64,000 bases of DNA from Thermovorax subterraneus (GCA_021608145.1 JAKIHM010000011.1:1-64000); one strand, 5' to 3'. Numbered from the stretch's first letter, positions 8,615 through 22,992 are shown. Numbers and translations: made by a program. The notes: generated by a model from the sequence alone, not told the origin.

Positions 8615-8772
8615 AAATCCGGCTCCTTTATCAATATAAAAGCCTCCTTCCGCAACAGGAAGCTCGCCTATTTCAAGGCGAACCCTAACGGCCCGAAGAC
8701 CATGGGTGCAACCTTCAGGTCATGGGGCTTGGAGCAATATTCTTTTAGGTGCATACAAATTCCCAGCAATGT
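8615..8772. other. Intergenic leader with local stem-loops
   Basis: 158 bp between the 441-residue protein gene and the phosphoesterase gene, both minus strand. On the minus strand it can form CCATG/CATGG enclosing ACCT/AGGT, and a CGCCT...AGGCG hairpin, before the AAAGGAG of the next gene. It looks structured but I cannot assign it to a riboswitch class. It may serve RNA processing or stability within the operon. Confidence 0.3.
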
Positions 8773-10098
8773 TCACCGGGCAATGGTAATCTCGCGAGTT
8801 TTTGGATTATAATCCACTGCAGCGCCCAGTGTCTCGCTCACGAATCGCAGAGGTATAAAGGTGCGGCCTGGCGGAAGTATAACCGGGGCGCAATCGATGG
8901 TCTGATGCATGCCGTTAACCAGAACATCGCTGGAACCAACTGTGAGGACAATCTTCTTTTCTTCATCAGTAATGATTACCCGTCGAGTTTCACCGTCCCA
9001 AGTAACCTTAGCTCCTAATGCCTCGCTGACAAAGCGCAGCGGGACCAGCGCGCGTCCAACTTCGGTATTTAAGTATGGTGCTGTATCCAGGGTGTAAGGA
9101 ACACCGTCGATACTGGCTTTTATACTTCCAGGAGTGAGCTGGATAACTTTAAGCGATGGCTTTACATCGGCTACCTGGTAAGTAAATGTGACGATATCGC
9201 TGTCTAACTTGCCGGGCCCAATTGTAATCGCCTTAATGATGGTATCTTCATAAATAGGACCAATGGGGCGATTGATTTTTCCCAGGACATCTGCCCTGGC
9301 TGACCACCACCGTCTGGAAATCCAGTTGTACATGGGACTATTCAGGTTGGGGTCGCTGCCGTCCAGGGTATAATAAATCTTAGCATCATCATCGTTGGGA
9401 ATGCTAAGCGTCACCATGGTCCCTGGAGGTACTGTACCGCTACCTGGATTGGCCTGCGGAGGATCCCATTTTTCCGGCTCGTCGGTAAGCACCTCTATCT
9501 TATTAAGATATTTAACGAATAAATTCCCTGTTTGCTCTGTTACGGTGCGCTGTCCTAACATCAGCATTGGGCAATTCAAATCGTTCATGTATTCGGGGTT
9601 ATTGGTTCCCTCAGCATTGACCAGAGCAATGATAGGTTCTACCTTTACTTTCCCGGAAGGATCTCCGGGAATATGCCCTTCACTCTCCGAACCCTTTTTA
9701 AAATTTGGAAAACAATAACGCTCGTCGTGAAATAGCTCCTTCATTGTAAGCACTACCGTGTAGCCGTCGACAGCCGTAAATCTTATTAGTTTAGCCTCTC
9801 TTTCCTTAATCCCCGCTCTGACGAGCAAATCCCACAGTTTGACTCCTCTCCCTACATACCATCTCTTGCTGGGCCAGGTGTTAATGCAGCTGTACACTAC
9901 CTGATGCTGTTCCATTTTTTCCAGATCTTTCAGAGTAAACTTCACCGGATTTGACACTCCATCTCCAGTTATTTCAAGCGAGTACGATTCCGCAAGGGTA
10001 GTAGTGGGAAGCATTATGATGAACGCAGAAGTAAATAAAAGTACTCCGGCTAACATATAAACCAAAAAGGCTACCACTTTCCTTTTATCAGCTTGCAT
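8773..10098 (-). CDS. Secreted molybdopterin-fold protein with chitobiase-type and copper-amine-oxidase-N domains
   Basis: 441 residues. Signal peptide (1-36); sulfite-oxidase-like domain (about 37-205) with KFTLKDLEKME, GRGVKLWDLL and DGYTVVLTMKEL; a CHB_HEX_C-type domain (about 215-315, GTMVTLSIPNDDDAKIYYTL); and a copper-amine-oxidase N-terminal-type repeat pair (about 325-441: RALVPLRFVSEALGA and RTFIPLRFVSETLGA), usual in cell-surface proteins of this group. Cys71 in VVYSCINTW aligns with the Moco-coordinating Cys of the family, unlike the paralogue at 11083-12801 (Thr). The first ~320 residues are clearly paralogous to that protein. It follows the ExbB-DUF2149 pair and is probably in the same transcript. 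Whether it binds molybdopterin is unknown. Confidence 0.82.
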   Translation of the reverse strand: MQADKRKVVAFLVYMLAGVLLFTSAFIIMLPTTTLAESYSLEITGDGVSNPVKFTLKDLEKMEQHQVVYSCINTWPSKRWYVGRGVKLWDLLVRAGIKEREAKLIRFTAVDGYTVVLTMKELFHDERYCFPNFKKGSESEGHIPGDPSGKVKVEPIIALVNAEGTNNPEYMNDLNCPMLMLGQRTVTEQTGNLFVKYLNKIEVLTDEPEKWDPPQANPGSGTVPPGTMVTLSIPNDDDAKIYYTLDGSDPNLNSPMYNWISRRWWSARADVLGKINRPIGPIYEDTIIKAITIGPGKLDSDIVTFTYQVADVKPSLKVIQLTPGSIKASIDGVPYTLDTAPYLNTEVGRALVPLRFVSEALGAKVTWDGETRRVIITDEEKKIVLTVGSSDVLVNGMHQTIDCAPVILPPGRTFIPLRFVSETLGAAVDYNPKTREITIAR

Positions 10099-10413: not shown

Positions 10414-11086
10414 CCTGTTCCTCCTGCTTCTCAACCCTCTGTCCATGAGCAGACACCTCCAGTAAGCTTTCCATCAAGGCCTCCAGAGAGCTCAAGTACT
10501 CCTCATACCACCTTTTGCGCAACCGAGAAATGGTAAAAGCTACACCAGCAGCCGCAAGGCTTATTACCGTCGTGTCAAAGGCAACTAGTAGAGATTCCGA
10601 TAAGGTTCTAGTGTCTCCCTGGCCAAGGGCAAGTATTCCCGGCCCAAGTGGAATAAGGGTACCCATTAACCCAAACATAGGTGCAAGACGGGCAACCAGG
10701 TCTGTCCAGCCTACTATCTTTGAATAATGTAGTTCCTCCGCGGCTATCAGGTGCCGAGCCAGCGCCTGTAAGGATGCGGCAGGCAAATTACCGTGCCTTA
10801 TTAGCTCGCACAAAGCCTCTTTATGCCGCCGGAATAGGCAGCTTTGCCGGACAATTTCCATTATCTCCTCGGTATTTTTATCCTGAAAGGCATCGACCAG
10901 TTCTTGCACATTAACTTTCATCCGGCGCCGTTCTATAATAGCTTCCACCAGCAGGCTACCGAGTTCAACCACCGACACTGCTAAAAGCAGTAGCAGTATA
11001 ACAATTGTAGGTATCAATAAGCCGCTGGAGATTACATGCATTGTATCTTTTAGAGGCATTAAAATGGCTTCTATCATTATGCTCAT
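10406..11086 (-). CDS. MotA/TolQ/ExbB family proton-channel protein
   Basis: 226 residues with three membrane segments: about 20-45 (GLLIPTIVILLLLLAVSVVELG), about 125-150 (LVARLAPMFGLMGTLIPLG) and about 165-190 (LLVAFDTTVISLAAAGVAFTISRL). The APMFGLMGTLIPLG and FDTTVISLAAAGVAF motifs are the hallmark of ExbB/TolQ channel helices, including the conserved Thr. With DUF2149 it should form a proton-driven stator that works on an extracytoplasmic protein. The upstream 572-residue protein overlaps it by 4 bp and has a C-terminal membrane anchor, making it the best candidate partner. ExbB/TolQ normally energise outer-membrane processes, so its place in a Gram-positive surface operon is notable. A second ATG three codons in is possible. 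Confidence 0.85.
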   Translation of the reverse strand: MSIMIEAILMPLKDTMHVISSGLLIPTIVILLLLLAVSVVELGSLLVEAIIERRRMKVNVQELVDAFQDKNTEEIMEIVRQSCLFRRHKEALCELIRHGNLPAASLQALARHLIAAEELHYSKIVGWTDLVARLAPMFGLMGTLIPLGPGILALGQGDTRTLSESLLVAFDTTVISLAAAGVAFTISRLRKRWYEEYLSSLEALMESLLEVSAHGQRVEKQEEQDA

Positions 11087-12801
11087 AGCTCCTTTACAAA
11101 TTCGATATATTTTTTGCCTGCACCAGAAAGTAAGAGGAGCAGAATTATAGCTGCAATATAGAAAGCCAGATTCTTTTGTCGCGCCGGCAAAGGTATGGGC
11201 ATAACAGTCCCAAACGTTATCTCGTATACCCGAACCTTATTTGGGCTGTTTTCCGACATTGAGGTTACGCCGGCGGTGGTAAAATTCGCCTCGATATCTT
11301 GTTTACGTACCAAATACCGCCAGTTGCCTTCGAGTTCTGGTGCCTCGCCTTCGGTTGTTGAAGCGAGAACTTCCTGATCCTCTTCTGCCGCTGTAGTGGC
11401 TTCACCTGCTGGTTCCGACATCCTGTCGGTAATTTCCGGTTCCTCATCGTAAATTGAAGCAGAAACTGCCGTTTCCTTTTCTGCAACCTTCTGCTCATCC
11501 GTATCCGACAGCAGGTCTGAGGGCTCCTCCTTGGTCTTGGCCATATGTTCTGTAGCGTCATTCTCGCTTTTTTCATCCTCTAGGCCACGTACAATACAGG
11601 TAGCCACGTGGCCGCCGACTATAGTTTTTGCAGTAATGATTGCTGTACCCCGGCCCACAACCGTGACAAGGCCTCCGGCATCCACCGTGGCAACGCTGGT
11701 ATCGCTAGAACTCCAGACCACCCTCTGGTCAACGGCGTTAAACGGAGCTACACTTGCTTCCAGACGGAAAGTACTCCCTACTGGTAGATCAATTTCATTC
11801 CGGTCAAGGGTCACACTGGTAGGCGGCCCACCGGGGATTTTGGTCGGATCTGCCAACTTGCCGGTACGATCGACTTTATAAGTAAATGTGACAACTTCGC
11901 TGTCTTCTTTGCCGGGCCCAACGACAATAGCCTTGATGACTATGTCCTCTTTTATTTCGATAGGACGGTTTACACTTTCCAGATTATTTCTTAAAGGCCA
12001 CCAACGACTGGCAGACCAGTTAAACATCGGGCTGTTCACGGTCGGGGTGCTACCGTCTATCGTGTAATATATCTTAACTTCATTATCGAACTTACTGCCA
12101 AGAGTTATCACAGTACCCTCCGGCACAACGGTTCCGCTAGGTATACTGGCCTTAGGGGGATCCCATTTTTCCGGGTCGGTGGTGAGCACCTCAATTTTAC
12201 TCACATGTTTTAAAAATAAATGATTGGTCTGTTCGGTTACTGCTCGCTGGCCAAATATCAGCTGCAAAGCATCTCTGTCATTCATATCGGCGGGATTATC
12301 GCTTCCTTCAGCACTGACCAGAGCCAGGATCGGCTCGACTTCCACCGCACCCTCTGCAGAACCGGGAATGCTCCCGTCGCTGGGGTGATTATCCTTTAAA
12401 CGCGGGAAATAATAACGCTTGTCTTTTAACAACTCTTTAACGGTGAGGGTTACCTCATAACCATCTTTCGATATAAATTTAATTAATTTGGCCTCTTTCT
12501 TGATTCCTGCAAGGTCTAGCAAATCTCTCAATTTTACCCCTCTTGCCGTATACCATCTCTTCGTTGGCCAGGTGTTTATCGTGCTGTAAACATGCTGATA
12601 TTGCTCCATTGCCTCAAGTTCCGTTAACGTTAACTTCAGAGGTGTTGTTACCCCACCTCCTGTAATTTCAAGCGATTCTGAGGTTTCAGCAAAAGCCTTT
12701 CCTGGTCCTGTAATATGAAATAAAGCTACGGACAGAAACAGAACAAGAGCGATTTTCAAAAGTTTGTATAGCGATTGGAGACCAATACTGCGGGTAACCA
12801 T
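11083..12801 (-). CDS. Membrane-anchored surface protein: molybdopterin-fold, chitobiase-type and Ig-like domains
   Basis: 572 residues. Signal peptide (1-38); sulfite-oxidase-like domain (about 40-205: LTLTELEAMEQ, ARGVKLRDLL, DGYEVTLTVKEL); CHB_HEX_C-type domain (about 215-315: TVITLGSKFDNEVKIYYTI); BIG2 Ig-like domain (about 335-410: DLPVGSTFRLEASVAP, WSSSDTSVATV); an acidic Glu/Thr-rich stalk (about 415-500); and a C-terminal transmembrane helix (about 545-562) with a short basic cytoplasmic tail. Thr74 sits where the Moco-ligand Cys would be. First gene of its run, with GGGGAGAGG upstream and a leader of about 380 nt from the promoter at 13188-13216. Type I topology plus overlap with the ExbB gene suggests it transmits motor force outward, as TonB does (inference). 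Confidence 0.82.
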   Translation of the reverse strand: MVTRSIGLQSLYKLLKIALVLFLSVALFHITGPGKAFAETSESLEITGGGVTTPLKLTLTELEAMEQYQHVYSTINTWPTKRWYTARGVKLRDLLDLAGIKKEAKLIKFISKDGYEVTLTVKELLKDKRYYFPRLKDNHPSDGSIPGSAEGAVEVEPILALVSAEGSDNPADMNDRDALQLIFGQRAVTEQTNHLFLKHVSKIEVLTTDPEKWDPPKASIPSGTVVPEGTVITLGSKFDNEVKIYYTIDGSTPTVNSPMFNWSASRWWPLRNNLESVNRPIEIKEDIVIKAIVVGPGKEDSEVVTFTYKVDRTGKLADPTKIPGGPPTSVTLDRNEIDLPVGSTFRLEASVAPFNAVDQRVVWSSSDTSVATVDAGGLVTVVGRGTAIITAKTIVGGHVATCIVRGLEDEKSENDATEHMAKTKEEPSDLLSDTDEQKVAEKETAVSASIYDEEPEITDRMSEPAGEATTAAEEDQEVLASTTEGEAPELEGNWRYLVRKQDIEANFTTAGVTSMSENSPNKVRVYEITFGTVMPIPLPARQKNLAFYIAAIILLLLLSGAGKKYIEFVKEL

Positions 12802-13722: not shown

Positions 13723-14427
13723 TCATTCCTCATATTTTTGAATCATCTTGAGCTTAAATCTATTGAGTAACTTAATGAAGCCTGGACCGAAAAGCAGGTA
13801 AAATGCCGCATTGCCCGCGGCGTGAAAAGTATCAAACCAGAAACTTGCCGCACAGACTGCTATAAAACTCTGCCAGTTTAATGGTTTAACAAAAGTAGTC
13901 CATGACCACAAGTTTAAAATCCATCCAAAAAAATACCCCCATAAAAAGCAGAAAACGACCATTCCCCATCTGCCTATGTGCGGGAAGAAGCATTTAACGA
14001 TACCGGCCGATGAGCCGGCAAGACCCCAGGCAAACATCTGCCACGGTGTCCACGGCCCCTGCCCCAGAAAAAAGTTTGAAACCAGGGCCGCAGTGGAACC
14101 CGTCATAAAACCAGCGGTCGGGCCGAAGACATACCCGGAAGCTATTGCTATAAATGTGGTAGGCTGTACGTTGGGCAGGGCGGCAAAGGCAACCCGGCCT
14201 GCAGCGCCAACGGCCCCCAGCACCGCTATTAGGGCAATTTCCCTAGGAGAGGAAGCGTCCAGTTCAAAGCCCAGGTACATCAAACCAACAGCGCCAAGGA
14301 TGATAATAGATGCTGTCAGCCCCCATTCCCGGGTGATGGAAGTCTTTCCCGAGATGGTGACCGCGAGAAAAACCGGGATAATCGCAAATCCGAGCCAGAA
14401 CAGAATTTTGGACAACAGTTTTTTCAT
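13723..14427 (-). CDS. cbrT: ECF transporter S component, CbrT-like (predicted cobalamin)
   Basis: 234 residues with six membrane helices and features of ECF S components (REIALIAVLGAVGAAGRVAFAALP near the N-terminal third; QPTTFIAIASGYVFGPTAGF; GQGPWTPWQMFAWGLAGSSAG). It is the substrate-specificity subunit of the transporter whose T and A-A subunits lie directly upstream. The cobalamin riboswitch at the head of the operon and the T/AA/S order match predicted and studied CbrTUV B12 importers. A longer frame begins at 14532 inside the ATPase gene; I prefer ATG 14427, which has AAGGAAG six bases upstream and sits 14 bp after the ATPase stop. The symbol is by context as much as by sequence. Confidence 0.75.
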   Translation of the reverse strand: MKKLLSKILFWLGFAIIPVFLAVTISGKTSITREWGLTASIIILGAVGLMYLGFELDASSPREIALIAVLGAVGAAGRVAFAALPNVQPTTFIAIASGYVFGPTAGFMTGSTAALVSNFFLGQGPWTPWQMFAWGLAGSSAGIVKCFFPHIGRWGMVVFCFLWGYFFGWILNLWSWTTFVKPLNWQSFIAVCAASFWFDTFHAAGNAAFYLLFGPGFIKLLNRFKLKMIQKYEE

Positions 14428-14441
14428 AAGCATCTTCCTTT

Positions 14442-16112
14442 TCACTTTCTTTCCCACTTTCCGTGCGACGCAGGTTTTAACACGGCCAGAGCTTCTTCCG
14501 GAGTCAGAATGCCGTCTGCAAAGCCCCGGCACATCCTGCCGATCTGGGTAGAATAAAAAATCGACTCTGATAGGACCTGATGTGCCGGACCATCACATAC
14601 TATCCTGCCACAGAACATCATGATCACTCTCGATGCGTATTCTGCGGCAAATTCCACATCGTGGGTGGTCAGCACAACACTTGCTCCCTGCCTGCAGTAT
14701 TCCACCAGCACCTTCCCCATTTCGGCCTTCTGGCGATAGTCAAGCCCCCTGGTAGGTTCATCCAGCAACAAAAGCTTTGGCTTGGTGACCATAACCGAGG
14801 CCAGGGCCACCTTCTGGCGTTCCCCACAGCTCAAATCCCGTGGGTTTGCATGTCGAAAGTCCTGTAGCGAAAGCTTATCCATTATTTCATCAACTATACC
14901 GTTCGGGCTGATACCGAAATTTTTTAAAGTATATAATAATTCTTCCTCTACAGTATCATGAAACAGGTAATCGCTGGGATTCTGGGAAAGGTAACCCACC
15001 CATGAATTCCAGACCCTCCGACTACTGCTGCTCCCCGGTTCCCCGCCCATCAACATTACCCGGCCGCGCCCTGGTTTTAACAGGCCTGCCATAGTTTTGA
15101 GTAGCGTGGATTTGCCCGCTCCGTTAGCTCCCAGCACGGCCACCAGCTCTCCGGCATAAAATTGTAAATTTATATCCTGCAACGCTTCCCTGCCATCGGG
15201 ATATGCAAACCATACCCTCTCCATTCGTAAGAGCGGTTCTTCTTCGTGCACAACCCCGGGATGCTTTAAATAAAAATCGCTCGAAGGAAGGTTAAAGTTT
15301 TCTCTCAGCATACGCCGTCCTTCTTTTACCGTGACGGGAATCGTATTAAAACCTGCCTTAGCAAAGAAGCGGGCGACAGGTGGGATAAAAGGGGTTTCAC
15401 ACTGCGCCGCCCGGCGTGCCACCTGCTCAGGTGTGCCCTCAAACCTTATTCTCCCATCTTCCATAAGCAAAACTCTGTCCGCTAAATGAAAACATCTTTC
15501 AAGACGCTGTTCTATTAAAATCACGGTCATGCCTAAATCTTCATTCAAACGTTTTACAAGATTAAAAAATTCCTCCGCCGCTACCGGGTCCAGTTGAGAA
15601 GTGGGCTCATCAAGGATTAAAACCGAAGGCTGCATGGCAAGCACCGCAGCCAAGGCAAGTTTCTGTTTTTGGCCGCCGGATAGTTTCGCAGTAAATTCTC
15701 GCCTTAATTCCGAAAGCCCCAAAAAGCTCATGACTTCAGCAATACGACGGGCCATCTCCTGCTGTGGAAGGCCCAGGTTTTCCAGGCCAAACGCAATTTC
15801 GGCCTCCACGCTTGTCATGATCAGCTGTTTTTCCGGATCCTGGAAGACTATCCCCACCTCTCTGGCTATACTGCATTGTTCAAGTTGCTTAATATCTTTG
15901 CCCCGAAAGAAAACGCTGCCACCTATGCGGCCACCATAAAAGCCGGGAATTAAGCCCGCGAGCACCCGAGCAAGAGAAGATTTACCCGAACCAGAACTGC
16001 CAGTGATGAGCAAAAACTCTCCCTCTTCAATATTCATATTTACGTCTTTTAATGCAGGCTTCTGACTGTCGGGGTAAAAATACGTCAGATTTTTGATTTG
16101 ATAAAGGGGCAA
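14442..16112 (-). CDS. cbrU: ECF transporter duplicated ATPase (A-A fusion), CbrU-like
   Basis: 556 residues with two complete ABC ATPase domains. Domain 1: Walker A GSSGSGKSS (about 37), Q-loop FQDPEKQLI, signature LSGGQKQKL, Walker B VLILDEPTSQLD. Domain 2: GANGAGKST (about 330), LSCGERQKV, LLLLDEPTRGLD. Each has a following His switch. It hydrolyses ATP to drive the adjacent EcfT and S subunits. Start is TTG with GGGGGTGG upstream, overlapping the EcfT end by 28 bp, so the two are translationally coupled. It lacks the T domain that is fused to its system B counterpart. Confidence 0.85.
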   Translation of the reverse strand: MPLYQIKNLTYFYPDSQKPALKDVNMNIEEGEFLLITGSSGSGKSSLARVLAGLIPGFYGGRIGGSVFFRGKDIKQLEQCSIAREVGIVFQDPEKQLIMTSVEAEIAFGLENLGLPQQEMARRIAEVMSFLGLSELRREFTAKLSGGQKQKLALAAVLAMQPSVLILDEPTSQLDPVAAEEFFNLVKRLNEDLGMTVILIEQRLERCFHLADRVLLMEDGRIRFEGTPEQVARRAAQCETPFIPPVARFFAKAGFNTIPVTVKEGRRMLRENFNLPSSDFYLKHPGVVHEEEPLLRMERVWFAYPDGREALQDINLQFYAGELVAVLGANGAGKSTLLKTMAGLLKPGRGRVMLMGGEPGSSSSRRVWNSWVGYLSQNPSDYLFHDTVEEELLYTLKNFGISPNGIVDEIMDKLSLQDFRHANPRDLSCGERQKVALASVMVTKPKLLLLDEPTRGLDYRQKAEMGKVLVEYCRQGASVVLTTHDVEFAAEYASRVIMMFCGRIVCDGPAHQVLSESIFYSTQIGRMCRGFADGILTPEEALAVLKPASHGKWERK

Positions 16113-17014
16113 TTATGCCACCCCCAACTCAATATTAACGGGAAGGATAACAGAAAAATTACGGCGAAAAGGAGCACTAATTCCGTAAGCCCGTCAATAA
16201 GGCAATCGAGCCGCGGGTAAAAGCTGAATGTGCCCAGGCCTTTGGCCCAACCGTATATCGCCGCTCCAAGGGCGAGCAGGCTTGCGGCAAGGCAGATACT
16301 ATCTCTAGGCCTCCAAGCATCGCGGACATAGTGTGAACGCCTTCCGCTGCCAAAGGCCCTCGCATACATTGCTTCCGCTGTTTCCATGGAATCTTCAAGA
16401 GAAGTTAAAAGCAGTATTTTTATCAATAGGGCGTATTTCCCCATCTTTTCTTTTAATGTTCCCGTATTAAAATCGACTCCTCTCGCCGTCTGGACTTCCC
16501 TTATACTGTCCAGGCGACTTACCATGGCGGGGAACATCCTGGCGGCGAGGGAAAGCACCAGCGCGGACTTGAAAGAAAAGCGAGACAGCAAGTCCAGGAC
16601 CCGGTCAGGGTGAATCGTAAAATTGTAAAGGCAAAAAATGCTCATTATATCCAGAAGCCTTAATCCCATGTCTGCACCATAGCAAACAGCCTCCATTGAG
16701 ACGTTCAACCTGCCGAAAACTGGGATGTACGGTCCGTGCCATATAATGGTCTCGCCGGCGCGGACTGTAATTGCATTTACAATTATGATAACAAAAGCTG
16801 CCCCCATGCTTACTTTAAGAAAAGATTTCCAGGCATCTATCCCGTCAACAGCTTTAATGGCCGTGACTGTAACTGCGAGCAGTCCAAGGAGGTAAAGGGG
16901 GTGGTTGAACATCAATACCAGCCCCAACAAAACTGCGATATATGTTAACGCGGACAGCGGGTGAAGACTCTGCAAAAATAGCCCTTTTTCTCTATAAAAA
17001 AAGCGGTCCAGCAT
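16085..17014 (-). CDS. cbrV: ECF transporter transmembrane EcfT subunit, CbrV-like
   Basis: 309 residues. Membrane helices at the N-terminus (LTYIAVLLGLVLMFNHPLYLLGLLAV) and the CbiQ/EcfT cytoplasmic coupling region with the two Ala-Arg-Gly-type motifs (EVQTARGVDF about 178 and AMYARAFGSG about 216). It couples ATP hydrolysis in the A-A protein to the S component. GAGAGGAG lies nine bases before the ATG. It begins 15 bp after the DUF4430 anchor protein gene, supporting a single operon from the riboswitch through the S component. Confidence 0.85.
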   Translation of the reverse strand: MLDRFFYREKGLFLQSLHPLSALTYIAVLLGLVLMFNHPLYLLGLLAVTVTAIKAVDGIDAWKSFLKVSMGAAFVIIIVNAITVRAGETIIWHGPYIPVFGRLNVSMEAVCYGADMGLRLLDIMSIFCLYNFTIHPDRVLDLLSRFSFKSALVLSLAARMFPAMVSRLDSIREVQTARGVDFNTGTLKEKMGKYALLIKILLLTSLEDSMETAEAMYARAFGSGRRSHYVRDAWRPRDSICLAASLLALGAAIYGWAKGLGTFSFYPRLDCLIDGLTELVLLFAVIFLLSFPLILSWGWHNCPFIKSKI

Positions 17015-17029
17015 TATAATTTTCTCCTC

Positions 17030-17842
17030 TCAATTTTGAGGCGAATTCTTAACCAAACTCTCCCAGTCGGGAGAGGGGGTGTTGATGCTCTCGCTGTACC
17101 ACCAGATTATCCTGTCGCCCGGTTTAATCTTTTTTTCACTTGCTGCAGCCATTGGCACCTCGTCGTTTACTTTGTACATCCAGCCCGACATACCTTTGTT
17201 TGCCTCTCCTGCTATGCTTATGACAAAACCACCGTACGTCGGACTGGTCTTGTATTCAATCCCGGTGGAATCGAGAGCACCCAGCACCGTCAACCCCCAC
17301 CTGTTGTTCTCTTCTACTGCCACCTTTGCAGGGCCGTACAATACCCGACCTTCTTTTCCGACTATGGCGATTTCCACCTGACATTCGCCTGCTGCGGCAG
17401 AAGTTGAGCCAGTTTCTTTTGTAGTATCACTGCCGGCATCGGCGGTCTCTTTTTTATCAGAGGAGGCCGAAGGCATATTAACCTCAGAGGAAACCGCGGC
17501 ACTGCTCGCCGAAGTACCCCTGCTGCCGGCAGACACAGATTTAGCATTAGGAGTCTGCCTTATTTCTGTCTGTAATTTTACGTCGGCAGGCTCTGCATTT
17601 TCACCGATCTTTTTTTCAACAGTAATGCTACCCGGAGCAGTGCCTGTTTCCTTCTCTGGCACATCGCCCGCAAGTGCACCAGCTTTCTGCTCTGTCTGGC
17701 CGTTTATTATAGCACTCGTCGGCTTTGTATTCACATTATTAGACATCAAAGACCCGTGGTTTTTTTCAGCCGTGGTTAAGGTTATTATTATGGCAAGTAG
17801 CAGTGCTATAATAATTGAAAACTTTACACCTTGGTTTTTCAC
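17030..17842 (-). CDS. Membrane-tethered DUF4430 (transcobalamin C-domain-like) protein
   Basis: 270 residues. An N-terminal hydrophobic helix (about 8-24) without a lipobox probably acts as signal anchor. A long low-complexity linker follows (about 30-150, rich in Ala/Ser/Thr/Glu/Lys), then one DUF4430 domain (about 152-262) with CQVEIAIVGKEGRVLYGP, WGLTVLGALDSTGIEY, GMSGWMYKVNDEVP and KPGDRIIWWYSE. DUF4430 is annotated in Pfam/InterPro terms as transcobalamin-like. The same motifs occur in the SLH protein encoded upstream. Its place between the wall-bound receptor and the ECF transporter suggests it passes ligand across the wall to the membrane (inference). GTG start with GGGGG upstream. 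Confidence 0.8.
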   Translation of the reverse strand: MKNQGVKFSIIIALLLAIIITLTTAEKNHGSLMSNNVNTKPTSAIINGQTEQKAGALAGDVPEKETGTAPGSITVEKKIGENAEPADVKLQTEIRQTPNAKSVSAGSRGTSASSAAVSSEVNMPSASSDKKETADAGSDTTKETGSTSAAAGECQVEIAIVGKEGRVLYGPAKVAVEENNRWGLTVLGALDSTGIEYKTSPTYGGFVISIAGEANKGMSGWMYKVNDEVPMAAASEKKIKPGDRIIWWYSESINTPSPDWESLVKNSPQN

Positions 17843-17878: not shown

Positions 17879-20800
17879 CTATTCTCCTCCCATAATCCGG
17901 TATATTATAACGACGGTTTCCGCCCTGCTGGCCGTAGCTTTCGGCCGGAATGTGCCGTCTTCAAACCCCTTGAGCAACCCACCGGCTACGGCAGCAGCTA
18001 CACTCTCCTCGCTCCACGGCGAAATTGTTTTTCTATCTTTAAAATCCGGCTTTTCCCCAGATGAGGCAAGCCCGAATGTACGGGACAGGATGACCGCAAT
18101 TTCCTCCCTGGTAATGGTACCTTCAGGGCGGAAAGTGCCATCTTCATAGCCGTTGACAAAACCCCAGTCCGCAGCGGTGTACACGGCATTTGCATACCAT
18201 GCATCTTCTTTTACGTCTTTGAATTGTCCTTTTCTGCCTGTCTTTGGTTCAAGGCCCAGTGCTTTAACCATAAGAGTGACAAACTCGGCCCTGGTCACCG
18301 CACGGCCCGGCTCGAAATGAGTTCCGTCAACACCCGTCACAATTCCGGCTCCGCCTAGAACTTCAACAGCATCCTTAGCCCACTCGAAAGATACCTCGTT
18401 GACATCAGCAAATGACCTTTTTACCTCTTTTGCAAACACGGCAACTTCGGAGAAGTGTTCTAACTTAGCCAGAATGACACCCTTTTGCAGGTCTACCACA
18501 GCAGGGATAACCGTCCACCTGCCGACTTCTTTATCATACCAGGCAAGGGCCAGGTTTTCCGGTTTTACCAGGGGCGGAACAGCAATTCTTATAGCCACTG
18601 TTACGGACAGAGTAAAAGAGGTTCCGTCCGGGCCAAATTGATAAATCCCCGATAAAGCTTTGTAGCCGGCAGGAATTGCGCTCAAAGCTTTGTCACCGGT
18701 GAGTTTCTCTGCTGATGGCATATTGGTCTCTTTGATCGATATTGTCACATCCTTTTTCAATGCACCTGCCGAAATGATAAGGGCTATTTCCTCTTTGCTG
18801 TCGGCAATGATCGCCCCTGTTGAAGCGGCTACCTTTTTCTCAACATCAACCGCATTTTGAAGAAGCATTTCTTTCAAATTCAAAAATTCACCGCGTTTAA
18901 ACGGTCCACGGTTTCCAACAACCACTACCGATTTGCCTGTCTCTCCAAGACCCACCGCATCTTTTGTATTCGCTTTTATTCCGAGCAATTGGTCGACTTT
19001 TTCAAGTGCTTTCAGCGCTTCATCGGAAACCTGCAAAGCCTGTGGTAGTTTTTTATTCTGTTCTGCAAGGTCAGAAGAGATAGCGTCTTCCTGTTGCTGA
19101 ATCACTTTTTTGTTAACCAGTTCTTCCCACGTGGGGCCGCTAGAATTTATGTCTGTACTGTACCACCAGATGATTTCATCACCTTCATTTATAGCAAATT
19201 TGGAGGCCAGGACAGAAGGTATCTTGCCGTTGACTTTATACATCCATCCACTCATGCCTTTGTTAGCCTGTCCTTCAATGCTTTTGACAAAGCCGTTATC
19301 ATCGACGTAATCCAGGCCAGTAGCGTCAAGGGCTCCCAGGGCCGTCAAACCCCATTTCCCATCTGCCCTTACAGTGACGGAACGGGGACCGAATAGCAGC
19401 TCTCCATCTTTGCCCACTACTGCGATATTTACAGTACACTTGACCTGAACCTGATCCGAACCGGGCTGGGAAGATCCCGGCGATTCAGCTTCCCCATCAA
19501 TTAGGATAAATGCGCTTAACGCTTCGGCAGCGTCAAGAATATTTCCCATTGAGCCGAAACTGCCGTCGGAGTTCAGCGCTTTCTGCATCATGTAGTCAAC
19601 AGGAGTGAAGCCCTGGCTGCTCTTCCAGTCAGCGGGATTCTTGCCCAATTTCTTCAATGTAACAATTGCCTCGGCGGTATCCACCACCGGATCATCCGGA
19701 TAGGGCTTTGTGGTATATACGCTGCCGTCGGGCTGCAACTGTTTTTTAAGATAAACAAGGCCTTTTTCTATGGCATCCAGAATCTGCTTGTCTTCTGAAG
19801 CCCCGGGCAGGTATGTCAGTGCCCGAATGGCCTGAGCTGTTGACATAAAGTCGGGGAAAAACACGCCATTCCATTCTTCTCCCCAGGAGCCGGCGTTATC
19901 GCCCGATAGGTTCTGCTTACCCAGTATGTAACTTCGCGCTTCAGCCGTATTTATTTCATTTATCTTCCCCGCTTCTCCCAGGGCAATATACGCCCACATG
20001 TCGCTGTAGACACTGTTGTCAAAGCCTTTTGAAGAATGCCTTTCCTTTAAAAGATTTACCAGTCTGTTTACCCTGTCCTCGTCCTTCCAGAGGTTTAAAG
20101 CCAGTATATGCTGGGCGATGGTCTTTGTCTTCGATCTTTTTATCCAGGTAGAACCAGCGCCAGCGTAGTCATTATATGTTTTCCCCACTGATTTCAGAGC
20201 TATGAGGGTTTCAGCCGTCGCAAAGGTGCTGTCCCACTGGGCTTTTATGGCCGCGGTCTCGGGGTCCTGGATGTCCGCGAGATAAGTGAGGCCGCCCTGA
20301 ATGGCATTATAGACATCGCTGTCGGGATTGCGAGCCGCATCAAAATAGCTGAGGGCCGTAATAACCTGTGCAGTCAGGTCGGGCTCTTCAGGATAATAAC
20401 CTCCCCATGCGACACCCGCATCATTGCCCCAGCTATCCTCGTGCGGGCGTTTAAATTTATTGAGATAATTAAATGCCTTTTGCTGGTCTATGAGGTTGAG
20501 TTTACCTGCCTTGCCGAGGGCGGTCAGGACCATGACATCGTCGTAGATGCTACTACCAAAATAAACCGAATCTTCAACAGTTTTCCCTTTATCCGCGATA
20601 GTCCGGGCCAGAGTGTCTATATTATCAGATTGCGGGTCTACCGCACGAAGGGCAGTCAACTCTTTTGCAAGGTAGACGGCATCGAGGACGGAAGCGTTGC
20701 TGGCAGCAGCGGCAGCCGAGGTAATGACTATATCCTTTAGAGACTTGCCGCCGTATACCCATGTGGAAAGGTCTTCTCCAGCGTCGGAGAGGGCTTCCAC

Positions 20801-21361
20801 ACACCGGTAGTCGAATTTCCACCCCTGGGCATCATAAGTCAGGGATCCTTTCAAATAACGATCCTTGAAATATGTTATGGCTTTTGAAATACTATCCTGC
20901 ACCTGGCTTTTTAAATTGCTATCGGTTATTTCATTCTTTACCATCGCCAGTGCCTGCAGAGGAGCTTTGGTGCCGTATTCGTTGGCATAAGGGCCAAAAC
21001 TGCCATCAGCGTTCTGTGTAGCCAGGATATATGTAATCAGGCTGTTGCTATTGCCAAGAAAGTCCGCATTTTTCTGAATTTCATCCTCCAGGCTCTCACC
21101 ATTCCTGGACCATTTTTCCGACGAAAGATCTTCTCCCGCCAGGGTTAGGACGTATGCGGTGTAGCCGTCAATTTTTTCGCCGGCTTTGTATCTATCGTTA
21201 ATGAACTGCACAGCCTTATCGGCCAATTGTTTAGCGGTATAACTCTCAGCCTGCGTGGCAGCCTGGGCTGCAGTCAGAGTCACCCCACCAACAGTGATGC
21301 TTAATAAAAGGCAAAATACCAGAATAATCGATACCAGACGCTTTTTGATTTTATACAACAT
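17879..21361 (-). CDS. SLH-anchored intrinsic-factor-like protein: alpha/alpha toroid + DUF4430
   Basis: 1160 residues. Signal peptide (1-35, AQAATQAES); a long prenyltransferase/squalene-cyclase-type alpha/alpha toroid (about 40-625) with recurring motifs such as ILATQNADGSFGPYANE, ALAMVKNEI, ITALSYFDAARNPD and AEAIVTLKKLG; a DUF4430 domain (about 640-745: GLTALGALDATGLDY, GMSGWMYKVNGKIP, EGDEIIWWYS); a beta-rich region (about 850-980: DVTISIKETNMPS, VEHFSEVAVF-like end); and three SLH repeats (about 985-1160). Toroid followed by a small beta domain is the plan of intrinsic factor, haptocorrin and transcobalamin. First gene after the cobalamin riboswitch, with AAAGGTGG upstream of ATG. Predicted wall-bound corrinoid receptor; binding untested. 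Confidence 0.85.
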   Translation of the reverse strand: MLYKIKKRLVSIILVFCLLLSITVGGVTLTAAQAATQAESYTAKQLADKAVQFINDRYKAGEKIDGYTAYVLTLAGEDLSSEKWSRNGESLEDEIQKNADFLGNSNSLITYILATQNADGSFGPYANEYGTKAPLQALAMVKNEITDSNLKSQVQDSISKAITYFKDRYLKGSLTYDAQGWKFDYRCVEALSDAGEDLSTWVYGGKSLKDIVITSAAAAASNASVLDAVYLAKELTALRAVDPQSDNIDTLARTIADKGKTVEDSVYFGSSIYDDVMVLTALGKAGKLNLIDQQKAFNYLNKFKRPHEDSWGNDAGVAWGGYYPEEPDLTAQVITALSYFDAARNPDSDVYNAIQGGLTYLADIQDPETAAIKAQWDSTFATAETLIALKSVGKTYNDYAGAGSTWIKRSKTKTIAQHILALNLWKDEDRVNRLVNLLKERHSSKGFDNSVYSDMWAYIALGEAGKINEINTAEARSYILGKQNLSGDNAGSWGEEWNGVFFPDFMSTAQAIRALTYLPGASEDKQILDAIEKGLVYLKKQLQPDGSVYTTKPYPDDPVVDTAEAIVTLKKLGKNPADWKSSQGFTPVDYMMQKALNSDGSFGSMGNILDAAEALSAFILIDGEAESPGSSQPGSDQVQVKCTVNIAVVGKDGELLFGPRSVTVRADGKWGLTALGALDATGLDYVDDNGFVKSIEGQANKGMSGWMYKVNGKIPSVLASKFAINEGDEIIWWYSTDINSSGPTWEELVNKKVIQQQEDAISSDLAEQNKKLPQALQVSDEALKALEKVDQLLGIKANTKDAVGLGETGKSVVVVGNRGPFKRGEFLNLKEMLLQNAVDVEKKVAASTGAIIADSKEEIALIISAGALKKDVTISIKETNMPSAEKLTGDKALSAIPAGYKALSGIYQFGPDGTSFTLSVTVAIRIAVPPLVKPENLALAWYDKEVGRWTVIPAVVDLQKGVILAKLEHFSEVAVFAKEVKRSFADVNEVSFEWAKDAVEVLGGAGIVTGVDGTHFEPGRAVTRAEFVTLMVKALGLEPKTGRKGQFKDVKEDAWYANAVYTAADWGFVNGYEDGTFRPEGTITREEIAVILSRTFGLASSGEKPDFKDRKTISPWSEESVAAAVAGGLLKGFEDGTFRPKATASRAETVVIIYRIMGGE

Positions 21362-21506: not shown

Positions 21507-21546
21507 AAATAAAATAAAAGCCCTGGCTCCTCAAGATAAGCCAGGG
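21507..21546 (-). terminator. Riboswitch expression-platform terminator
   Basis: On the minus strand CCCTGGCT (21539-21546) pairs with AGCCAGGG (21521-21528) around a 10-nt loop and is followed by CTTTTATTTTATTT (21507-21520). It lies between the cobalamin aptamer and the first gene, the standard place for a transcription attenuator that stops when ligand is bound. Confidence 0.85.
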
Positions 21547-21600: not shown

Positions 21601-21743
21601 CAGCAGGCCTCAGGTCTCCTGGCTCGGATTCACCGCTCCCCCACGCCTTCCCAGGTTATTCCCAGTGGCATGATGTGGGGGCGCTCCTCCTCACAGTGGC
21701 GCGACCGCGCCGGATTTTCACCGGCTTCCCTTGTTGCCTGCCG
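21601..21743 (-). ncRNA. Cobalamin (AdoCbl) riboswitch aptamer
   Basis: Read on the minus strand the conserved blocks appear in order: GGCAGGC (P1 5' side), AAGGGAAGCCGGTGAAAATC, GCGCCACTGTGAGGAGG, CTGGGAA...GGAAGGCG, and the B12 box GAGCCAGGAGACCTG, closing with GCCTGCTG as P1 3' side. These match the cobalamin riboswitch family (RF00174) closely. A promoter precedes it and an intrinsic terminator follows, so it should repress the surface/ECF operon 21361-13723 when B12 is plentiful. Confidence 0.95.
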
Positions 21744-21764: not shown

Positions 21765-21793
21765 ATTATATTAATAATTCATAGAACCGTCAA
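21765..21793 (-). promoter_or_regulatory. sigmaA promoter for the B12 operon
   Basis: Minus strand TTGACG (21788-21793), 17 bp spacer, TATAAT (21765-21770). Predicted start near 21758, about 15 nt before the riboswitch P1 helix and about 400 nt before the first gene. Confidence 0.8.
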
Positions 21794-22089: not shown

Positions 22090-22992
22090 TCATTCGGATA
22101 AAGCTTTTTTAAGGTTTTCGAGATTTTCCTGCATAATTGAAAAATAATCCTTGCCAGCCTTTATTTCTTCATATGTAAGCCCACCAATGGGATTCAGTAC
22201 CAGGGTTTTGGCTCCTACCTCCTGGGCCAGGGTTTCGGAAAGTTTAGGGCTTACTAGAGTTTCAAAGAAAATGTATTTTATATTCTTTTGCCTGCAAAGT
22301 TCGGCCAGTTCCGCCATTTTCTTAGGCGAAGGTTCCTCCTGAGGTGAAAGTCCTGAAATCGGTATCTGCACTAATCCGTATCTTTTTGCCATGTAGCCAA
22401 ATGCCGCATGGGATGTAATAAACTCTTTTCTATTCAGATTTGCCAGGTTTTCTCTATAGCTTTTGTCTAGTTCATTCAGTTTTGCCGCCAGTTCATTGAA
22501 GTTTTCTTCATAATAGGATTTGTTGTCGGGATCGGCGGCAGCTACTGCATCATATATACGGCGGGCCATTTCTTTAGCAAGGACAGGATCCAGCCAGATG
22601 TGAGGGTCATGATTTTCTATAAGGCCTTTTCCTGCTTCCACTACCGTTATCCCCTTATCCCTGAGCTGCCCTTCCAGCTTTTTGGCCCAGGGTTCCATGA
22701 CATCTCCAAGAAATACGAATACCTCAGCATCGTAAATCCCGGCTATTTGCTTTGGGGAAGGTTCATAATCGTGTGGTTCCACTCCTGCCGGTATAATGTT
22801 CTCTACCTGGGCTCTGTCCCCTACTATTTTTTTGGTAAAATCATACAGCGGATAAAAGGTAGTGTAAATGACAAGGCGACTTGAATTAGCTTTGGTAGGA
22901 GCATAATCGGCTCTTTTTGCAGCACAACCGGCCACCGTAAAAATTAGGGAAAAAATTGCAATGAATACTATTGCTTTTTTAAACCTTTTCAC
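22090..22992 (-). CDS. ZnuA/TroA-type metal-binding lipoprotein (Zn/Mn ABC importer solute-binding protein)
   Basis: 300 residues with a signal peptide and lipobox VAGC (Cys23), then the bilobal TroA fold: TTFYPLYDFTKKIVGD, IPAGVEPHDYEPSPKQIAGI (metal His), HDPHIWLDPVLAKEMA (His), ITSHAAFGYMAKRYGL (His) and the C-lobe FFETLVSPKLSETLAQEVGA. It should capture Zn2+ or Mn2+ outside the membrane for an ABC importer. No permease or ATPase gene lies beside it, so it must use components encoded elsewhere. The His-rich loop typical of strict ZnuA is short. GTG start with GGAGGAGG upstream; a GCAAAT-T-ATTTGC palindrome lies 19 bp before it. Confidence 0.85.
   Translation of the reverse strand: MKRFKKAIVFIAIFSLIFTVAGCAAKRADYAPTKANSSRLVIYTTFYPLYDFTKKIVGDRAQVENIIPAGVEPHDYEPSPKQIAGIYDAEVFVFLGDVMEPWAKKLEGQLRDKGITVVEAGKGLIENHDPHIWLDPVLAKEMARRIYDAVAAADPDNKSYYEENFNELAAKLNELDKSYRENLANLNRKEFITSHAAFGYMAKRYGLVQIPISGLSPQEEPSPKKMAELAELCRQKNIKYIFFETLVSPKLSETLAQEVGAKTLVLNPIGGLTYEEIKAGKDYFSIMQENLENLKKALSE

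Follow-up and report, generated by a model that had tools for sequence, protein, structure and literature searches.

Why should a bacterial cell-wall protein carry the same two domains, in the same order, as the animal proteins that bind vitamin B12? The question is raised by a gene of Thermovorax subterraneus in the 64,000-nucleotide stretch of DNA analysed here (GCA_021608145.1 JAKIHM010000011.1:1-64000; referred to as the window). A reading made from the sequence alone had placed at 17879-21361 a toroid of about 580 residues followed by a DUF4430 domain and SLH anchors, and had likened the arrangement to intrinsic factor and transcobalamin. These coordinates hold, on the minus strand; the plus strand is stop-rich. 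The gene and the parts of its product (the window protein) are as follows.

17879-21361, minus strand: window protein, a single open frame of 1160 codons from ATG, 1160 amino acids
21257-21361, minus strand: Sec signal peptide, residues 1 to about 35
21086-21235, minus strand: host toroid, helices 1-3, residues 43-92
20150-21085, minus strand: nested second toroid of 12 helices, residues 93-404, a probable circularly permuted copy of the host toroid
19490-20149, minus strand: host toroid, helices 4-12, residues 405-624
19157-19441, minus strand: DUF4430, a transcobalamin-type β-grasp (SLBB) domain with a β-hairpin before strand 3, residues 641-735
17897-18412, minus strand: three SLH repeats, the cell-wall anchor, residues 984-1155

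In the Pfam search, DUF4430 matches residues 676-735 in the same chain as the toroid (E 4e-15; 56.3 bits, cut-off 23.8), and the SLH anchors of the sequence-only reading appear as three repeats near the C-terminus (E 1e-34). The signal peptide is recognized from KIKKR, a hydrophobic stretch and AQAA, and both hallmarks of an SLH-anchored surface protein, the repeats and the signal peptide, are thus present. There is also a match to the S-layer protein Sap, and residues 846-924 give a weak ZU5 match (E 0.16). The DUF4430 profile matches all 61 members of the family (61/61). Neither the toroid region, the DUF4430 domain and the SLH repeats nor the riboswitch in front of the gene is a product of chance.

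That riboswitch links the gene to B12. Three elements precede the gene.

21765-21793, minus strand: promoter-like site TTGACG-17-TATAAT, assigned by consensus match only (11/12)
21612-21731, minus strand: cobalamin riboswitch aptamer (RF00174, model positions 45-169)
21521-21546, minus strand: terminator-like hairpin of 9 pairs with a T-rich tail, between the aptamer and the start codon

The aptamer scores 100.5 bits (cut-off 31.5) and lies 250 nt before the start codon. The terminator-like hairpin is probably the expression platform, and the layout corresponds to a transcription-terminating switch, in which bound B12 would turn the operon off. The riboswitch had been offered as a link to B12 independent of the protein fold. 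This link proves stronger than claimed, since the operon also encodes a CbrT-type S component (see below) and RF00174 immediately precedes the toroid gene, at a distance of about 100-250 nt, in 11/11 orthologous operons from relatives. A looser motif count locates the riboswitch upstream in 34 of 51 wider loci, against just two motifs on the opposite strand over the whole set; several of the remaining loci are truncated or were missed by the motif. One locus (L031) has two tandem cobalamin aptamers (283-466 and 528-695) before its orthologous operon. In the window, a gene for a ZnuA-type metal-binding lipoprotein (22090-22992, minus strand) sits just upstream of the riboswitch and apparently forms a separate unit.

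The toroid gene is the first of an operon that continues, in order, with a small DUF4430 protein, EcfT, a fused EcfA-A' and an S component.

17030-17842, minus strand: second DUF4430 protein, with an N-terminal membrane anchor, a long low-complexity arm and a C-terminal DUF4430 domain
16085-17014, minus strand: EcfT (CbiQ family) transmembrane subunit
14442-16112, minus strand: fused EcfA-EcfA' ATPase
13723-14430, minus strand: ECF S component of the CbrT (cobalamin) type, its ORF open from 14532

NCBIfam gives no specific name to the S component. Its profile identifies 6FNP_A as the sole significant PDB chain (E 2.5e-22), and the chain ranked after it has E 1.2. The entry 6FNP represents ECF-CbrT from Lactobacillus delbrueckii, for which transport of cobalamin and cobinamide has been demonstrated (PMC5997447). 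The window operon contains the full set expected of such an importer, namely a CbrT-family S component, related by sequence to that of L. delbrueckii, together with EcfT and EcfA/A'. The systems differ in their organization: in L. delbrueckii one ECF module serves several S components (PMC5997447), whereas the window operon has a dedicated module beside surface DUF4430 proteins. The gene set recurs among the 51 loci: 49 have a small DUF4430 protein, 44 have EcfA-A', 43 have EcfT and 37 have the S component. An N-terminal hydrophobic anchor is present in 35 of 36 homologues of the small protein, followed by about 110-190 residues before the domain. As read from sequence, this architecture suits a membrane-tethered relay.

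The operon therefore ties the toroid-DUF4430 protein to B12 import along three independent lines: the B12 riboswitch, the CbrT-type S component and the two-domain fold match described below. We consider it likely that the window protein is the wall-anchored, extracellular corrinoid-capture subunit of an ECF-CbrT B12 importer. The secretion and wall-anchor signals, riboswitch, operon, folds and CbrT kinship are read from the sequence or from models, and the steps that connect them would run as follows. When corrinoid is scarce, the cobalamin riboswitch would let transcription past the terminator, as its layout suggests, and the operon would be expressed. The toroid protein would be secreted and retained on the wall by its SLH domains, where B12 or a similar corrinoid may be captured between the host toroid and DUF4430 in the manner of transcobalamin. 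The ligand would then pass to the tethered DUF4430 protein with its flexible arm and from there to the CbrT-type S component, in this presumed order, and EcfT with EcfA-A' would drive it inside at the expense of ATP. The nested toroid would be an elaboration, most simply gained once in the lineage; it is not expected to be essential, because a close relative does without it.

The fold comparison bears on the capture step. We modeled residues 36-765 of the window protein with AlphaFold using 32 homologues; the model has a mean pLDDT of 92 and 24 helices before the β-grasp domain. A second model, of a single-toroid orthologue (L044; pLDDT 89), has exactly 12 helices, then the same β-grasp domain. 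For the single-toroid model, the 15 top-ranked Foldseek matches in the PDB consist entirely of transcobalamin, haptocorrin and intrinsic factor structures, with E values from 9e-10 to 4e-8, and the next family is a terpene cyclase at E 1.3e-4. For the window model, haptocorrin ranks first (E 2.7e-8), with transcobalamin and drimenyl diphosphate synthases close behind. Designed PPR proteins, also returned by Foldseek for the 24-helix model (E ~1e-4), were set aside as generic helical repeats. The β-grasp domain of the single-toroid model agrees with the transcobalamin β domain (5np4, 5no0) within 2.7-2.8 Å. In the window model, a hairpin of strands 685-688 and 691-695 lies between helix 674-680 and strand 704-710, and the single-toroid model likewise has a hairpin before strand 3. 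A hairpin in this position, between the helix and strand 3, defines the transcobalamin clade in the passages on SLBB domains of PMC1796856 and PMC1949818. The same β-grasp domain of the single-toroid model also matches the Ruminococcus gnavus 'putative metal binding protein' RUMGNA_00854 (PDB 3u7z, TMt 0.68), which unlike the window protein is a single domain of about 97 residues without a toroid. The window protein thus has an α6/α6 toroid and then a transcobalamin-type β-grasp domain, with a nested toroid added. Animal transcobalamin, intrinsic factor and haptocorrin (PDB 2bb5, 2pmv, 4kki) share the twelve-helix toroid followed by a β-grasp domain with the extra hairpin and are the best two-domain fold matches; they differ from the window protein in its 24 helices, its toroid within a toroid, its SLH anchors and its PF01122 match below the cut-off.

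Fold and domain order thus bear out the proposed intrinsic factor/transcobalamin plan. The shared B12 pocket that came with that proposal is not supported: superposed together, the two domains deviate from holo-transcobalamin by 21-23 Å rmsd, in ligand-free models whose linker has a pLDDT below 50, so that this deviation neither shows nor excludes a closed inter-domain pocket. Many homologues, moreover, carry an Ig-like segment of about 95 residues between toroid and DUF4430, and a rigid transcobalamin-like clamp is not conserved because of this spacer. The inter-domain geometry, the Ig-like spacers and the stand-alone DUF4430 protein in the operons all speak for a different division of labor within the same B12-uptake operon, in which the corrinoid is bound by DUF4430 on its own or by the small DUF4430 protein, the toroids have a structural role or attach to wall polysaccharide, and there is no transcobalamin-like clamp. 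It is also in keeping with this alternative that VIA ranks many toroid enzymes, sugar-active ones included, equal to or above haptocorrin for the toroid. Such a role for the toroids leaves unexplained the strong conservation of their loop motifs PDFMSTAQ, DDPxxDTAE and DGSFG and the toroid-DUF4430 order, kept across the family and common to transcobalamin, intrinsic factor and haptocorrin; on balance we judge it unlikely and favor capture by host toroid and DUF4430 together.

By sequence, the toroid has other relatives. Its profiles match squalene-hopene cyclases best (E ~3e-14), the Pfam matches of the family toroids are to SQHop/Prenyltrans and not to PF01122, and for the toroid alone VIA gives Z = 22.4 to squalene-hopene cyclase vs 19.1 to haptocorrin. 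PF01122 (Cobalamin_bind) reaches 11.4 bits in the window protein, below the cut-off of 25, and none of the 53 family toroids matches it at E 0.1 or better. Judged on its residues, the toroid is nearer to the squalene-hopene cyclase/prenyltransferase toroids than to PF01122. These matches would also be expected of a surface enzyme of the squalene-hopene/terpene-cyclase or prenyltransferase type, but PDVDDTA, the cyclase segment containing DxDD, aligns with PDFMSTA in the window protein, and the surrounding genes are those of B12 import, not of lipid synthesis. DxDD is absent anywhere in the window protein, and most homologues have DFM[STA]T at its position. With DFMS in place of the DxDD stretch, the toroid is predicted not to be a catalytic terpene cyclase, and an enzymatic role of this kind is highly improbable.

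The toroid region had been read as one structure of about 580 residues. The region is real, and it comprises two α6/α6 toroids of about 290-310 residues each, with 24 helices modeled. Among aligned orthologues, one block of about 310 residues after helix 3 is either present or missing, and the single-toroid orthologues lack exactly this block (window protein residues ~93-404). VIA-align ranges on the 24-helix model are of two kinds: a contiguous ring (70-358) and an interrupted ring (~4-591) over which only about 260 residues are aligned; because of these ranges, the second toroid is placed inside the first. The nesting is based on the VIA-align ranges, the single-toroid orthologues and the permuted alignment, and not on inspected model contacts. 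The same three observations favor nesting over plain tandem toroids with helices 1-3 in the first, a reading that is rejected on these grounds.

Aligned in linear order, insert and host toroid are 28% identical across 240 residues. When the host is reordered as helices 11, 12, 1-10, the BLAST score is 92.4 bits vs 80.1 for the linear order, and hhalign gives 225 over 266 columns vs 192 over 215. These alignments point to the insert being a circularly permuted copy of the host. Class II terpene cyclases also have one toroid inserted in another. They have the toroid fold in common with the window protein (PDB 2sqc, 8zgw) and differ from it in that its DxDD is replaced and its insert follows helix 3 and appears to be a permuted copy of the host. 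In a tree of the shared region with 33 rows, the nested state requires two changes, and L044 is placed within the nested clade with 97-99% branch support. The nested toroid is most simply explained by one gain and one later loss; the counts alone cannot separate gain from loss. As far as the open literature shows, the nested double toroid is new. Tentatively, the nested toroid may form a ligand cavity of its own, giving two linked corrinoid sites (or one, and a site for a carrier or wall partner) with B12 handed over from the outer to the inner, an arrangement that we think rather unlikely; if true, it would be a previously undescribed double-ring elaboration of the transcobalamin plan. Four relatives (L058, L067, L083, L084) have two complete toroids in tandem, not nested, and L051, L058, L060, L064, L067, L071, L073 and L083 are among the relatives with extra toroid proteins or tandem toroids. 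In some relatives an extra toroid-SLH protein without DUF4430 is encoded directly upstream of the toroid-DUF4430-SLH gene.

The link to the animal B12 carriers is by fold only, as the models present it. When the PDB is searched by sequence, neither the complete protein nor the small DUF4430 protein, nor a profile of toroid-DUF4430 or of DUF4430, reaches transcobalamin, intrinsic factor or haptocorrin. The bacterial and animal fusions of toroid and β-grasp domain may thus have been assembled independently, in which case no conclusion on where intrinsic factor came from could be drawn from their likeness. This concerns ancestry only and is compatible with a wall-anchored capture subunit. Convergence would account for the lack of a detected sequence relation between the bacterial toroid and animal PF01122, for a DUF4430 profile that matches no PDB chain, transcobalamin included, and for the varied bacterial arrangements of toroid and DUF4430 (nested, tandem, N- and C-terminal), some of which appear in passages of PMC1796856. 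It would have to arrive independently at the same domain order, transcobalamin-type hairpin insert and ligand context, and Burroughs et al. 2007 argue for lateral transfer in their passages on this point (PMC1796856); we hold convergence to be possible and the less probable course.

Much of this picture has been drawn before. In the relevant passages of Burroughs et al. 2007 (PMC1796856), bacterial toroid-SLBB proteins are described, a Desulfotomaculum protein is named, and their genes are placed in CbiO/CbiQ operons that also encode another SLBB paralogue. B12 scavenging is predicted there, and lateral transfer to early animals is proposed as the source of transcobalamin and intrinsic factor. 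The core idea, transfer to animals included, was therefore already published in 2007, in a part of that paper where domain analysis was the basis for deriving the animal plan from Gram-positive bacteria. The window protein fits these bacterial toroid-SLBB proteins (Pfam DUF4430, PF14478) throughout, as a secreted Gram-positive toroid-SLBB fusion in a CbiO/CbiQ operon with an SLBB paralogue. The nested second toroid, the SLH anchoring, the riboswitch and the CbrT-type S component go beyond the passages concerned. As far as the open literature shows, two independent pieces of evidence for B12 are new, the S component of CbrT type and the riboswitch that precedes each orthologous operon, and so is the SLH-anchored form. 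In the open-access literature searched, no biochemical study of a toroid-DUF4430 protein from bacteria was found; compact orthologues, such as a 440-residue single-toroid construct from L044, are suited to binding assays and crystallography. The window protein points to a wall-anchored equivalent, in Gram-positive bacteria, of the surface B12-capture lipoproteins that PMC6143338 describes, in the part concerned, for gut Bacteroides.

According to the passages on distribution in PMC1796856, bacteria with toroid-SLBB proteins are usually without B12 synthesis. The T. subterraneus genome, unlike this usual case, keeps B12-synthesis genes (CbiD, CbiC, CobS), and it has five cobalamin riboswitches and many B12-binding domains. 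Because of these genes, riboswitches and domains, the organism probably both makes cobamide and salvages corrinoids, and uptake would not be the cure of a full auxotrophy. The operon is patchy within the genus, being missing from three genomes (G002-G004), two of which are 99% complete. In two relatives (L026, L032) a second cobalamin riboswitch comes after the CbrT operon, along with further ECF and cobalamin-synthesis-like genes; uptake and synthesis are therefore adjacent there.

Elsewhere in the window, a Moco/tungsten riboswitch aptamer (8627-8746, minus strand) adjoins two genes on the same strand (8773-10098 and 11083-12801). Their products are secreted and contain sulfite-oxidase-type molybdopterin domains along with Fn3-associated/CHB domains and a Big_2 or copper-amine-oxidase-N-like domain. 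Between the two genes, a MotA/ExbB-like protein and a small membrane protein are encoded. Moco-SLBB fusions in Syntrophomonas are mentioned in a passage of Burroughs et al. 2007 (PMC1796856).
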